A DNA stretch of 41,518 bases from Nitrososphaerales archaeon (GTDB taxonomy: Archaea; Thermoproteota; Nitrososphaeria; Nitrososphaerales; JANXEG01): contig JANXEG010000005.1 in assembly GCA_025058425.1 (NCBI GenBank), positions 1 through 41,518 of the forward strand, in the 5' to 3' direction. This document shows positions 34,363-40,035 of this stretch, piece by piece. Position 1 is the first letter of the stretch. Each line of letters starts with the position of its first letter. Position numbers and translations under genes: made by a program. The notes under the pieces were generated by a model, which worked only from the letters and a program-made list of their open reading frames with translations, did not search any database and was not told where the DNA came from.

Positions 34363-36006
34363 TTAGAGATGTTGTTTTTCATATATTTCCTTTACTTTAT
34401 CGAGCGTATCGATCTCCTCCACACCCTTATCATACCTTATCCTTTTGATTCGAGGAAAGCGTAACGCGTAACCGCTATCGTACCTATCACTCTTTTGAAT
34501 ACTATCAAATGCCACTTCTAAGACAATTTCGGGCAGGACCGATACTCTAAATCCATAATCTTTCACCGTAATCCTCTTCAATCTCTCCGTCATCTCCTGT
34601 ATCTCTTCATCGGTCAATCCCGAATACGCCTTACCTATGATCCTCAATCGGCCTTCACCATCTCTTACAGCGAATGTATAATCTGATAGGAGGCCCGCCC
34701 TCTTACCATGGCCATATTCAGCCATCACGACCACCACATCCAACGTGTCCAACTCTCTCTTCAACTTCGTCCATAGTTTACCTCGCTTACCTAAACTATA
34801 AAGTGAAGAAGGGTCTTTTAAGACCAGACCTTCGTAACCCAACTTCTTACTCTCGTTAAATAACTCTTGAATTTCTTGAACCGTTTTCACTCGAAATATC
34901 TGTGAAGGTTTGACAGGATCGTAGAACTTCAAAGATTCTAACAACCTTCTTCTCAGATCGAGAGGTTCATCGATCAAAGCCTTCCCATTAAGGTAGATTA
35001 CATCGTACACAAAGTAGATTAAAGGGATTTCATGGATTAATTGGGGCCCGATATCTTTACGCCTCAATCTATGTTGCAACCTCTGAAAGGGTAATGGCCT
35101 ATCATCTTTGAATGGTACTATCTCCCCATCGAGGATACATTCACAATTCATCTTACTTAATGCATCGACGACTTCTGGAAAGCTCTTCGATACATCTTCG
35201 AGCCTTCGCGAAAATATCTTCACACAATCCTTTCCACAATGGGCCTGAGCCCTTATACCATCATACTTAAACTCTGCATACAATTCCTTATTGTAATATT
35301 TGACGATCTCCTCGGCAGACTGCATCGTATCTGCGAGCATGAAGCCTATAGGATGGAATAGTGTGATCTGCAATTCATGAAGTTTACCATGGTAGGCTTT
35401 TAATGCAACCTCACCTACATCACTGAATGCCAATACTGCATCTCTGATATCTTGAAGTTCATAATTGAAAGCTTTTGCTATACCCTCTTCGACGAGTCCA
35501 CTTACCAATCCTATACGTAACTCATTCGTTAAAATTTTAACAAGATACTTCGCTTCTAATGGTGTACAATTTAAGAATAGACCTTTGAGTAGATTCTTCC
35601 TTTCTAAAAACGATCCATCACCCTTCATCAGACTCATTCTATCGAGTGTACTCTGGATCGAGTTGAGAGTGAGTTCTTCTCTAATTAGAGGGATCAGCCT
35701 CCTTTTATTGAAGAGCGCCTCTGCCACCATTCCAAGATCGCCATACTTAACGTATGAGGATCTGAACTCTTCATCGGTCGCGCCACATATATCTACGATC
35801 AACTCTACCAAGCTCGAATAACCGATATTGACCTCTTTACCACTCCACGGAGCGAATATGTAGCCTGATAATACTCTGCAGACGAATGGTAGATTCTGTG
35901 GATCGAGGGCCTTCAGATAATCTGCTAAGATCTTGACCTTGTGTAACTTACTTCTGGTAGACCTTATCGCTTCACAGGTTTCACAAAAGGATCTAAAGTC
36001 AGACAT
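34363..36006 (-). CDS. lig: ATP-dependent DNA ligase
   Basis: 547 residues, the archaeal replicative ligase type. The adenylation Lys is Lys248 in AEFKYDGIRAQAHCG (motif I, KYDG). Other motifs are VKIFSRRLEDVSKSFPEV (motif III area), GEIVPF (IIIa), and KLGYEGLVLKDPSSLYSLGK (motif IV), then GKLWTKLKRELDTLDVV (motif V). The N-terminal 200 residues form the DNA-binding domain found in replicative ligases. It seals nicks between Okazaki fragments. It follows the acetyltransferase gene after 6 bp, so both are likely one transcript. Confidence 0.96.
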   Translation of the reverse strand: MSDFRSFCETCEAIRSTRSKLHKVKILADYLKALDPQNLPFVCRVLSGYIFAPWSGKEVNIGYSSLVELIVDICGATDEEFRSSYVKYGDLGMVAEALFNKRRLIPLIREELTLNSIQSTLDRMSLMKGDGSFLERKNLLKGLFLNCTPLEAKYLVKILTNELRIGLVSGLVEEGIAKAFNYELQDIRDAVLAFSDVGEVALKAYHGKLHELQITLFHPIGFMLADTMQSAEEIVKYYNKELYAEFKYDGIRAQAHCGKDCVKIFSRRLEDVSKSFPEVVDALSKMNCECILDGEIVPFKDDRPLPFQRLQHRLRRKDIGPQLIHEIPLIYFVYDVIYLNGKALIDEPLDLRRRLLESLKFYDPVKPSQIFRVKTVQEIQELFNESKKLGYEGLVLKDPSSLYSLGKRGKLWTKLKRELDTLDVVVVMAEYGHGKRAGLLSDYTFAVRDGEGRLRIIGKAYSGLTDEEIQEMTERLKRITVKDYGFRVSVLPEIVLEVAFDSIQKSDRYDSGYALRFPRIKRIRYDKGVEEIDTLDKVKEIYEKQHL

Positions 36007-36012
36007 ACCCTG

Positions 36013-36528
36013 CTAACCGTTTGGGATGGGTAAACTCATCTGGTAGGCAGCTTCACCATCATTATAGTATCCTTCATGCCTTGCCGTAATGACAAAACCC
36101 AATTTTTCGTAGAGGCGTATCGCAGGTATATTCGAGACTCTCACTTCAAGGAAGACCTCTTTACAACCTCGTTGGGCGAAACCTTTGATCGCCTCTTCCA
36201 TCAACGCTGAACCCAGACCCTTCCTTCGATGGCCCTCCAGAACGGCGATAGAGACTATATGCCCCTTTTTAGCGAAACCGAACTTGATGTTAGAAAAGCC
36301 AAATTCGATCCTACCCATTACGTAACCGACTATCTGGTTATCGATTTCAGCAACGATAAATGCTTCTGGTGCATCTTCTAAAAGCTCTTCATAAAAGTAT
36401 GTTGAATAATGTTCGGGGAGGGTGGTGAGATTGATCGATATAACTTGCTCTAAATCATCCTTTACACAACGCCTTATCACGTACTCCCCTATCCTTTTAA
36501 TGATGACCTTCTGCAAGATAGCTCTCAC
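36013..36528 (-). CDS. Ard1/RimI-like protein N-terminal acetyltransferase
   Basis: 171 residues, GNAT fold. The acetyl-CoA motif is SIAVLEGHRRKGLGSALMEE (R-R-x-G-L/I-G pattern), preceded by the strand GHIVSIAVL. The C-terminal part EVFLEVRVSNIPAIRLYEKL is the Ard1/RimI signature, and ARHEGYYNDGEAAYQMSLP matches archaeal Ard1. It would acetylate protein N-termini. The start is taken as GTG at 36528; a GTG at 36480 preceded by GGGGAG is possible and would give the family's usual N-terminus. It heads a two-gene unit with DNA ligase. Confidence 0.9.
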   Translation of the reverse strand: MRAILQKVIIKRIGEYVIRRCVKDDLEQVISINLTTLPEHYSTYFYEELLEDAPEAFIVAEIDNQIVGYVMGRIEFGFSNIKFGFAKKGHIVSIAVLEGHRRKGLGSALMEEAIKGFAQRGCKEVFLEVRVSNIPAIRLYEKLGFVITARHEGYYNDGEAAYQMSLPIPNG

Positions 36529-36650: not shown

Positions 36651-38150
36651 CTACTTGTATCGAGGATTTTCGCGATCTACTTTTAAAGAAATGGTCTTTT
36701 GCAATTGAGAAAAGAATAGCTTCGTCTCCCCCAATGTTATAAGGTCGATCGGTGCTACCTGTATCACGATTGGAAGGTTATTGACCGCTCTGCCCAAAGC
36801 CAATAGGCTCTTTGGTGGTAGAGTTCTAACGATCGATTTGATCGTCTCTGAATCGGTCGATGAAGTGCGCGAAACCATTTCTAGATCGTTATCGTTGGTA
36901 AAGTTAAAGAGGAATATATTATCCGCCTGCCGATATATGCTATCCTTTATCGCATCGGGTTGATTGGTAATTAATGTAGTAAATACACCGTAATGCCTCA
37001 TCCTCGTTATTAAATCATCCCAATAGGTCTCCCTTAAGTATAGATGGGCTTCTTCGGCGAATAAAAATAATGGAGGGATTAGATTCTTCTCCAACAACTG
37101 TGTAATCTTACTCAAGATGATCTCCACGGCCATCCTTCGAGTCAAAGGATAGACTTTATTGAGTGATATGATGATCAGACCACCATTCACCATCTTCGCT
37201 ATGAGATCTTCGATCCTCAGACCCTCCTCCTCACTATCTGTAAAGAGTTTCGAGTCTGCCAATGTGTAGTACCTTGAGATAAGCGCATCACGAACCAACT
37301 CATTACACTTTACATTCTGTATCACTTCATATAAAGATTGAAGTGTGAGAGAGTTTTGAGAATGAAGAAACTCCCATATTCGAATAAATTCACGGAGTGA
37401 TGCACCGGGGAGATCGAGTATATGATGGAGGATGTTGATGAACGTCCCTAAACCCAGATACTTTAAGTTAAACTTAAGTGTAAAGCCCGGTATTAAACGA
37501 ATTACCTTATTCGCGATTTCACTCGGTTCACCATTTCTCTTCCATGCCAATCCAGCATATTCATCATTCAGATCGAAGACTATTACATATGCACCATACT
37601 CTACAAGTTTACTTGCCAGTAATTTTGCAAAGTAAGATTTACCCGATCCCTTTCTACCGGTCACGATATTGAGTTGGCCATCGAAACTCTCTGCGTACAG
37701 GTTGATAGCCTCACCATCCCTTGCCCTACCTACATAAATGGCCCGCTCACCTAACTTTCCATTGATCGAAATCAGTTCAGAGATCGATACTTTCTTGATC
37801 TTAGAAGAGGTGCGTGAAGGGAGCCAAGAGACGGACGTAGTAAAATACCCTCCCTCTATACTCCCTCTAATTTTACATTTGAGCACCCTCATATCTCTGA
37901 TAGCATAAGAGATGCTCTTCATCTGCAAAGGGTCATGCTCGATCCCATCACCCGAAGCACTCGCAACCTCATCTCTTACGATCTCTTCTAAAATGCCCCT
38001 CACATCCAAGTAAGTTTCATCGTAGACCTGAACGACCAACTTTTTATCACGAGTTGCATCTTCAATCATAATATAATCTCCTTTAGCGATATCTTCATTC
38101 GGTAAGGCAAGGAGTGTTATTTCATCATTATGCTTTCCTAAAATCCTCAT
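36651..38150 (-). CDS. herA: HerA helicase/ATPase
   Basis: 499 residues from the ATG at 38150. HerA is the ring-shaped DNA translocase that works with NurA and Mre11-Rad50 in end resection. The N-terminal HAS barrel (MRILGKHNDEITLLALPNED) is complete. Walker A is NIVTGRKGSGKSYFAKLLAS, Walker B PLFLFAEEAHLYLRETYWDD, and the ring residues FTTLITNQPDAIKDSIYRQA follow. A frame upstream to 38216 would overlap nurA by 62 bp, so I place the start after nurA's stop, where AGGTGAT provides a ribosome site. The gene order nurA-herA is that of many archaea. Confidence 0.93.
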   Translation of the reverse strand: MRILGKHNDEITLLALPNEDIAKGDYIMIEDATRDKKLVVQVYDETYLDVRGILEEIVRDEVASASGDGIEHDPLQMKSISYAIRDMRVLKCKIRGSIEGGYFTTSVSWLPSRTSSKIKKVSISELISINGKLGERAIYVGRARDGEAINLYAESFDGQLNIVTGRKGSGKSYFAKLLASKLVEYGAYVIVFDLNDEYAGLAWKRNGEPSEIANKVIRLIPGFTLKFNLKYLGLGTFINILHHILDLPGASLREFIRIWEFLHSQNSLTLQSLYEVIQNVKCNELVRDALISRYYTLADSKLFTDSEEEGLRIEDLIAKMVNGGLIIISLNKVYPLTRRMAVEIILSKITQLLEKNLIPPLFLFAEEAHLYLRETYWDDLITRMRHYGVFTTLITNQPDAIKDSIYRQADNIFLFNFTNDNDLEMVSRTSSTDSETIKSIVRTLPPKSLLALGRAVNNLPIVIQVAPIDLITLGETKLFFSQLQKTISLKVDRENPRYK

Positions 38151-38154
38151 CACA

Positions 38155-39177
38155 TCACCTAGCCATATGCCTCGTAAAACTGATATGGCCCAAGAGGGTC
38201 TGGCGATGGTCATCACAGGTATTGAGCTTCGAATTTTTCATTACATAACTACACATACCAACATACTCGGTCTCGCTGAAGACCGAGAAGTGGTGGGCCA
38301 GACGTAGAGATTCTGGATACCCTCTACAGAACAGATCATTCGAGTATACTTTAGATAAGATCTCTTCACAGATGTGCAATTCAGAGTTAGCGACATCTAC
38401 CCGAAGGGGATAGCTACCTTCCATGAACTTCGTTAAAAGGACCTTTCCAGCCAATCCTCTGATAAGACCACTTGTCAATTCACTCACATCAAGATACAAT
38501 GGAGCCCCTTGTGAAAGGGCAAGTAGATCTGCAAACCTATTGAGGATGGTTATCCTCGATGATTTACAGATACCTACACAGATATTTTTATTATTCAGAG
38601 ATGTCTCGAGGATCTTATTTAGACTTATTTCATCACATTCGAAGATGGATGGTTTGAGGGAGCCATCTATCAGAATCAAAGCTTTTGATAGATGCTTTGC
38701 CAACTCAAGTTGAATAGAGCGTTCAAGTCTGATTCTGATCAAACGTTGAATGAACTCTACATCGTTCAGAACGGTCGAGTATAACCTGATTTCATTCACA
38801 TTCAATAGATCGTGTATATTCGATTCATTGATGTAGAGTATTATGGGGCCGATCTTTAGATACCCATGAATCTTCTTACTCTTAAAGAAGACGACGGTAG
38901 CACGGGCAGCGATCGCCATCCCTCTGTCGGAGTTCGCTATAGGTATAGAAGATGAATCTATCGAAGCGATGAGTATCGGTTCACCTTCTTTCGGAATTTT
39001 ACGAACCGATGCATTTAAAGAATTAAGGTTAAAGTTATTCGTATTATAATTCGCTTCACTCTGATAGAGTTTAAAATTTTGCATTATACGATCGCTGATA
39101 TGATTATTGAGCGATGTAAGAAGTGCATTGGTATCGAACTCTTCGCCTGAAATAGGAAGGCTTAATTGTTGGTTCAT
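38155..39177 (-). CDS. nurA: NurA 5'-3' nuclease
   Basis: 340 residues from the ATG at 39177, which lies 30 nt after a TATA box, so leaderless; the frame extends to 39243 but would include the promoter. NurA is the nuclease partner of HerA. Visible metal-site pieces are ILIASIDSSSIPIANSDRG (first conserved Asp) and KALILIDGSLKPSIF (second Asp), and the C-terminal YVGMCSYVMKNSKLNT completes the domain. It is followed immediately by herA (gap 4 bp), and the two products form one complex. It is divergent from a small winged-helix gene. Confidence 0.9.
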   Translation of the reverse strand: MNQQLSLPISGEEFDTNALLTSLNNHISDRIMQNFKLYQSEANYNTNNFNLNSLNASVRKIPKEGEPILIASIDSSSIPIANSDRGMAIAARATVVFFKSKKIHGYLKIGPIILYINESNIHDLLNVNEIRLYSTVLNDVEFIQRLIRIRLERSIQLELAKHLSKALILIDGSLKPSIFECDEISLNKILETSLNNKNICVGICKSSRITILNRFADLLALSQGAPLYLDVSELTSGLIRGLAGKVLLTKFMEGSYPLRVDVANSELHICEEILSKVYSNDLFCRGYPESLRLAHHFSVFSETEYVGMCSYVMKNSKLNTCDDHRQTLLGHISFTRHMAR

Positions 39178-39257
39178 CTTGATCAACAATAGGTGAAGGG
39201 TTAGATATAAATGTTGTGCAACTTGTTCAACAAAAAACAACAAAAAAGTGATGAATT
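39178..39257. promoter_or_regulatory. Divergent nurA-herA / wHTH promoter with three TTGNNCAAC boxes
   Basis: The gap holds ttgatcaac (39179-39187), and two tandem boxes ttgtgcaac (39214-39222) and ttgttcaac (39223-39231). The common form TTGNNCAAC is nearly palindromic, suggesting binding of a dimer. A TATA box for nurA is ATATAA (39205-39210). A row of A-rich sequence (about 39232-39247) leads to the wHTH start. The divergent wHTH protein is the obvious candidate binder. Confidence 0.6.
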
Positions 39258-39653
39258 ATGAGTGGTGAACGTAATGAAGTTAAGATTCGGCTCAAGAAGG
39301 GTGCATGGGAGGTTGAAATTACATGCTCTGAGGATAAGATAAAGCAGGCTGTAGAGAGTGTATTGGCCGGTATGAGCTCCGTAGTCGAAGCCTCTCCCAC
39401 TCTGCGTGAAGAAGTTAAGAGAAGTTCGTTAACATGTCGTGGCCTAATCGAATCATTGTGGAGTGAAGGGTGGTTTAGTGTAGAGAGGAGTTTAAGTGAA
39501 GTTTATGAAGAGTTGGCAAGGCGTGGATACCACTATGATAAGACTGCGGTCTCACATTCTTTAACCGATCTTGTTAGAGAGAATATTTTGACTAGGTTGG
39601 GGACTATGAGAAACTATCGGTACGTTCAGAAGAAGCCACCCCCAACTCATTAA
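39258..39653 (+). CDS. Small winged-helix regulator-like protein
   Basis: 131 residues. The N-terminal beta-rich part KIRLKKGAWEVEITCSEDKI is followed by a linker and a C-terminal helix-turn-helix. GLIESLWSEGWFSVERSLSE with VYEELARRGYHYDKTAVSHS reads as a winged-helix domain, with SLTDLVRENILTRLG as the third helix and wing. No family name recognised; such proteins are common in TACK archaea. It is the first gene away from nurA, with shared TTGNNCAAC boxes between, so it may control nurA-herA or itself. Confidence 0.78.
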   Translation: MSGERNEVKIRLKKGAWEVEITCSEDKIKQAVESVLAGMSSVVEASPTLREEVKRSSLTCRGLIESLWSEGWFSVERSLSEVYEELARRGYHYDKTAVSHSLTDLVRENILTRLGTMRNYRYVQKKPPPTH

Positions 39654-39735: not shown

Positions 39736-40035
39736 TTACGAATTATGAAACCTTCTAAATAACTCTTGTATATCGACTTTCTCACCCTTTTCCAACCTCT
39801 TCACCATATCGGTTAAAGCATCGTTAATTGGAGTAGGTATACCATAGATTTGCCCCAACTTTACAATAGCTCCATTGAGCGAATCGATCTCTGTCCTAGA
39901 ACCTCTCTCAATATCTTGAAGCATCGATGATTTATTCGATCCTGTCCTCTCCGCTACACTCAACATGAGCTCTATTGGATCGTCATCTTCTAACTTAACC
40001 CTCAATAAGAGAAGAAACTTCAGCTTCAGAAACAT
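39736..40035 (-). pseudogene. panE: Remnant of 2-dehydropantoate 2-reductase (C-terminal domain only)
   Basis: A 99-codon frame. Its last 65 residues match the C-terminal (ApbA_C) domain of ketopantoate reductase: TGSNKSSMLQDIERGSRTEI with DSLNGAIVKLGQIYGIPTPI and NDALTDMVKRLEKGE. This is the conserved SMLQD...TEID...NG...PTP pattern. The roughly 180-residue NADPH-binding domain is missing, and the sequence upstream to livF (40036-40193) shows no coding signal for it. The frame's own N-terminus (MFLKLKFLLLLRVKLEDDD) looks like readthrough of non-coding DNA. I read this as a decayed gene. The function is probably lost, unless the fragment is expressed as a small protein. Confidence 0.8.

Follow-up and report, generated by a model that had tools for sequence, protein, structure and literature searches.

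Predicted local control of an archaeal nurA-herA operon by a divergent winged-helix protein through conserved TTGNNCAA boxes

Known control of NurA-HerA and the genes of this locus

BlaI/MecI, ArsR and Fur repressors are characterised by short inverted operators placed over promoters and by a divergent, autoregulated gene layout. For the NurA-HerA machinery, a modest, about 2-fold upregulation of the Sulfolobus herA-mre11-rad50-nurA operon with NQO is reported as part of the damage response centred on Orc1-2 (PMC10470591). HerA-NurA is also listed for Nitrosocaldus (PMC5797428). The first-pass annotation of the DNA analysed here had called the regulation of HerA-NurA in archaea little described. 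This holds for local control, but not for induction of the operon, which is known from Sulfolobus. A dedicated NurA-HerA regulator was not found in our literature search, which was thin on subscription journals.

The window, meaning the whole stretch of DNA that was analysed, comprises 41,518 nucleotides of contig JANXEG010000005.1 from a Nitrososphaerales archaeon. It contains a nurA-herA pair and, divergent to it, the gene of a winged-helix protein (wHTH).

36651-38216, minus strand: herA, hexameric ATPase/translocase (Pfam PF01935, E 2.1e-12, over cut-off), overlapping the end of nurA
38155-39177, minus strand: nurA, nuclease (Pfam PF09376, NurA, E 1.9e-9, over cut-off), ATG at 39177
39179-39187, plus strand: box A, TTGATCAAC, 1 nt from the nurA start codon, a placement kept in relatives
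39205-39212, no strand assigned: TATA-like element ATATAAAT, between boxes A and B
39214-39222, plus strand: box B, TTGTGCAAC, abutting the TATA-like element
39223-39231, plus strand: box C, TTGTTCAAC, 9 nt after box B and directly adjoining it
39258-39653, plus strand: wHTH gene, an open reading frame of 131 aa conserved across the phylum

The D, E, D, Y and H columns of NurA are conserved at 96–99% among 89 NurAs of this module, and we take these acidic, Tyr and His residues to have catalytic roles. The nurA transcript is predicted to be nearly leaderless. The best solved match of the window HerA is HerA 4d2i (E 4e-8). Its identification as CedD was rejected with scores far below the NCBIfam cut-offs, as was its identification as antiphage HerA, which is also far below cut-offs and for which PADLOC matches are weak. 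The core nurA-herA unit lacks mre11 and rad50, and a search for the Rad50 zinc hook in six genomes gave no match, an uninformative result with so short a search model. Downstream of herA are genes for a DNA ligase and a GNAT acetyltransferase (34363-36528, minus strand), an arrangement shared by the one same-genus genome; at the other loci examined neither was detected close to herA. The match of a 99-aa open reading frame at 39736-40035 (minus strand) to ketopantoate reductase is confined to the C-terminal half of that protein (ApbA_C, 2e-20), and the frame is probably a gene remnant.

Including the window pair, three NurA-HerA pairs are present in the genome, and the two further pairs are barely related to it by BLASTP. 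One of them, on contig C41 (L111:4560-8943), and the gene of a Rad50/SMC-like ATPase make up a single run of overlapping genes; the matches of this ATPase to models of arcadin-4 and of archaeal SMC-related proteins fall short of the cut-offs. The other is located on contig C23 (L110:6464-9118). Given three pairs, the window pair is not necessarily the end-resection pair that the first-pass annotation took it for, while the autoregulated local controller proposed there is well supported by comparison.

In the predicted structure, wHTH consists of an N-terminal beta-beta-alpha segment and a C-terminal winged helix. The winged-helix part of the AF2 model reaches a pLDDT of 83–87, and the whole-protein model is weak (pLDDT 72, pTM 0.47). 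The best Foldseek matches are the DNA-binding domains of Fur, ArsR/SmtB and BlaI/MecI with E ~0.006–0.05, and none falls below E 1e-3. No Pfam or NCBIfam family matches wHTH over its cut-off. The BlaI-type Pfam model Penicillinase_R has no match to the window protein at E<=1; its best E among relatives is 0.0015, short of the curated BlaI/MecI cut-off. A paralogous two-domain protein, wHTH2, about 26% identical, is encoded on a different contig of the window's genome (L088:3066-3545), and no TTGNNCAA box was found upstream of its gene in this genome. In several relatives (L023, L025, L037) wHTH2 is convergent to the regulator gene.

The box array and its conservation

Three TTGNNCAAC boxes had been described at 39179, 39214 and 39223, the first at the nurA start codon and the other two upstream of the nurA TATA box, 27–44 nt ahead of the wHTH reading frame. 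Both the sequences and the layout are exactly as described. Since the nurA ATG lies at 39177 on the minus strand, box A is positioned 1 nt upstream of the gene. The TATA-like ATATAAAT is placed for nurA (minus strand) and possibly also for wHTH (plus strand). In the window, TTGNNCAAC has 11 matches on both strands compared to 3.2 expected. Taking this observed density, the probability that an 80-bp stretch carries three matches on one strand is ~2e-7; the window-wide chance of such a triple cluster is ~1e-4, even at the locally high box density, and this gap holds the only one. The comparative evidence is far stronger than this single-sequence statistic.

The motif itself has to be redefined. 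The operator core is the palindrome TTGNNCAA, and the final C of TTGNNCAAC, originally part of the box, is frequent and dispensable. In an alignment of 45 sequences the two central bases are free to vary, unlike TTG and CA. The half-sites of TTGNNCAA are close together for a classical winged-helix dimer.

Orthologues of wHTH occur in 50 of 61 related genomes, one of which (G050) has a weak paralogue-like match. A scan of public genomes returned 80 named loci, mostly labelled Nitrososphaeria, Nitrososphaerales or Thaumarchaeota. nurA is divergent from wHTH in 90 of 96 distinct loci; these loci are related and hence dependent samples, so that such counts, here and below, overstate the number of independent events. 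TTGNNCAA is found within 150 bp upstream of wHTH in 106 of 109 Nitrososphaeria loci (family f19 excepted), with a chance expectation of 4.6% of loci, and the 110 bp preceding the wHTH start are enriched 55-fold for it compared to the rest of the 96 loci. Thus conservation of the gene pair goes together with conservation of the boxes, and wHTH keeps its synteny with nurA; neither comparison refutes the proposed controller.

The arrangement within the gap is conserved as well. Relatives across Nitrososphaerales carry CAT-N-TTGNNCAAC at the nurA start, with the 1-nt spacing of box A, and the TATA-box B combination TATAAATG-TTGYRCAA 31–41 nt further on (mode 38). In Nitrososphaeria relatives box B abuts the TATA (TATAAATG-TTGNNCAA). 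Box C mostly stands at an offset of 9 nt from box B, as in 42 of the 57 strict-architecture loci. The expression for the strict architecture is fitted by 59 loci, and many of the others combine the boxes with a differing TATA or with a split gap. Among relatives, conserved boxes, predicted to be operators, are present at both the nurA and the wHTH promoter. In longer gaps (L080, L084, L086, L128, L180 and others) each of the two genes has its own TATA-like element and boxes, which argues that the boxes belong to the individual promoters. In 33 of 59 relatives in-frame stops precede the nurA ATG. Families of other Nitrososphaeria orders (f18, f20, f21, f22, f24) keep the nurA-herA synteny and in most cases boxes A, B and C; the f21 locus L261 lacks box A. 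In f22 (L265, L272, L273, L274) box A is doubled in tandem with a 9-bp step, and the doubled box apparently lies over a TTG start codon of nurA.

A phylum-wide search detected wHTH in 104 of 398 genomes. In other Thermoproteota classes TTGNNCAA is located within 150 bp upstream of wHTH in 34 of 40 loci. The TATA-B-C architecture extends to these classes, and it aligns without gaps in 45 sequences, TATAAATG-box B included. At some of these loci box A may, judging from the sequence, lie within the first nurA codons. Where herA is undetected (L317, L320, L322), the divergent neighbour is still NurA in three of three loci tested, and TATA-box B persists at the wHTH promoter.

Two families differ. 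In f19, TTCATGAA replaces the TTGNNCAA boxes at the nurA start in 11 of 11 loci (L257, L260, L266, L268, L276-L282). Residue D104 of the recognition helix is changed to S or A in 10 of the 11 f19 proteins, and this change together with the TTCATGAA operator is a candidate for regulator-operator covariation from one clade. The wing residues 116/119 (K/R) were rejected as setting the TTCATGAA operator, as other classes with TTGNNCAA boxes share them. Family f9, probably the Nitrosopumilaceae, has no wHTH; it keeps a single NurA of another type, and the array is absent, with isolated box matches only.

The genome-wide scope was defined by pattern and profile searches. Single boxes are not diagnostic, since the window's genome has about twice as many matches to TTGNNCAAC alone as to its reversed control (151 compared to 73). 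The TATA-B pattern has 1 match in this genome, in this gap; over the 61 genomes 26 matches fall in this gap and 16 elsewhere, compared to 15 for the reversed control. Profile R1 finds the gap alone at E<=1 in the window's genome. At E<0.03 it matches 47 of the 49 genomes with wHTH and 0 of the 12 without, a co-occurrence test with some circularity, since many of these loci went into building R1. A wider regulon was rejected, as the tandem-box pattern, the TATA-B pattern and the R1 profile yield the gap and background only, and at other nurA/herA loci isolated matches but no comparable array were found. Looking for other boxes in the genome, which had been suggested as a check, reveals no second target in the combined signatures. 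With the promoter signature at this locus only in the window's genome, the controller appears strictly local.

Proposed control and alternative explanations

In archaeal promoters the TATA centre usually lies ~26–27 bp before the start site. This geometry would place the start of nurA within box A and that of wHTH a few nucleotides past box C. Box A is thus predicted to lie over the nurA start site and box C just upstream of the wHTH start site, while box B, beside the TATA, would overlie both the BRE of nurA and the core promoter of wHTH. We propose that wHTH would bind the TTGNNCAA palindromes in its own intergenic region. Boxes B and C would fill the stretch from the TATA box to the wHTH start site, and protein bound at the boxes would obstruct TBP/TFB or RNA polymerase in either direction. 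Because both promoters would be blocked, repression with autoregulation is preferred, and bound wHTH would most likely repress its own gene and the divergent nurA-herA operon. The signal lifting repression would presumably be a product of DNA damage or of invading DNA, or simply a falling level of the regulator, and lifted repression would raise NurA-HerA. It is very likely that wHTH acts through these boxes, whichever the sign of its effect. To the reading of wHTH as a dedicated local regulator, with putative dual repression of itself and of nurA-herA, we assign a probability of about two in three.

The positions of the boxes would also allow nurA activation from boxes B and C. Bound wHTH could stabilise TBP/TFB and activate nurA-herA while repressing itself, and the two boxes are suitably placed for both effects, just upstream of the nurA TATA/BRE as for an activator and between the TATA and the wHTH start site as for a repressor of wHTH. 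However, no other site is placed as exactly as box A, over the nurA start, an arrangement typical of repression, and we consider activation unlikely. That the boxes serve a different factor, such as a general regulator of stress or damage responses, is less likely still. In such a case wHTH would be a passenger or a protein partner of NurA-HerA, and it could indeed be a DNA-binding accessory subunit. An array at one locus with background elsewhere in the window's genome misfits a global regulator, though, other nurA loci have no comparable array, and the TATA-box B element stays at the wHTH promoter where herA is missing.

Box B abuts the TATA, box A abuts the start codon, and at some other-class loci box A may fall in the first nurA codons. 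These contacts would suit constraints of the core promoter, of RNA or of the coding sequence in place of operators. Yet TATA followed by box B is no more frequent than background elsewhere in the genomes, the central bases vary freely where TTG and CA do not, and the in-frame stops upstream of the nurA ATG argue against a coding origin. An RNA element in the leader was rejected, as the fold is unremarkable (z 0.55) and the Rfam search gave no match. We regard an explanation by such constraints as highly improbable.

Beyond local dual repression by wHTH, a wider role can be put forward tentatively, which we think is more doubtful than probable. wHTH would then be an ancient, phylum-wide dedicated NurA-HerA switch, older than the split between Nitrososphaeria and the other classes sampled and with its operator kept. 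It would sense DNA ends, single-stranded or foreign DNA, perhaps via its conserved N-terminal domain, as a one-operon counterpart of bacterial SOS.

Comparison with known systems

Transcriptional control of DNA end processing is known in Sulfolobales, and in the papers searched we found no dedicated NurA-HerA regulator. The module supplies a candidate protein, an exact operator and a predicted single target, so that the switching-on of an archaeal NurA-HerA machine is now testable with one protein and one 80-bp DNA. Natural controls are given by f9 without the module, by f19 with its changed operator and by the lineages with split promoters. The locus represents an unusually deep case of a conserved, predicted archaeal operator.

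The Orc1-2-centred response of Sulfolobales, with repression by ArnA, also controls a herA/nurA operon of Thermoproteota at the level of transcription. Orc1-2 acts globally, whereas wHTH appears to be local and has no detectable second target. An operator common to many damage genes, as in the Orc1-2 regulon, was not found here, the array being present at this locus only; in addition, the operator differs and the core unit lacks mre11-rad50. HerA and NurA of the window are homologous to the Sulfolobus HerA-NurA end-resection complex. In contrast to Sulfolobus, the gene order is nurA-herA without mre11/rad50, two further pairs exist in the genome, and the HerA sequence is distant (NCBIfam HerA_Thermprot, 27 bits with a cut-off of 800). 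The DNA-import ATPases CedD/CedB are HerA-type like the window HerA, and CedD is its top NCBIfam match (2.8e-13). This match reaches 49 bits with a cut-off of 600, however, and the window HerA is paired with NurA, which is unmentioned in the Ced paper. With the BlaI/MecI, ArsR and Fur repressors, wHTH shares the predicted winged-helix fold according to Foldseek, along with short inverted, putative operators over promoters and a divergent layout that is probably autoregulated. It differs from them in lacking a significant sequence match, in its unrelated N-terminal beta-beta-alpha segment and in its predicted target, which is a DNA end-processing pair.
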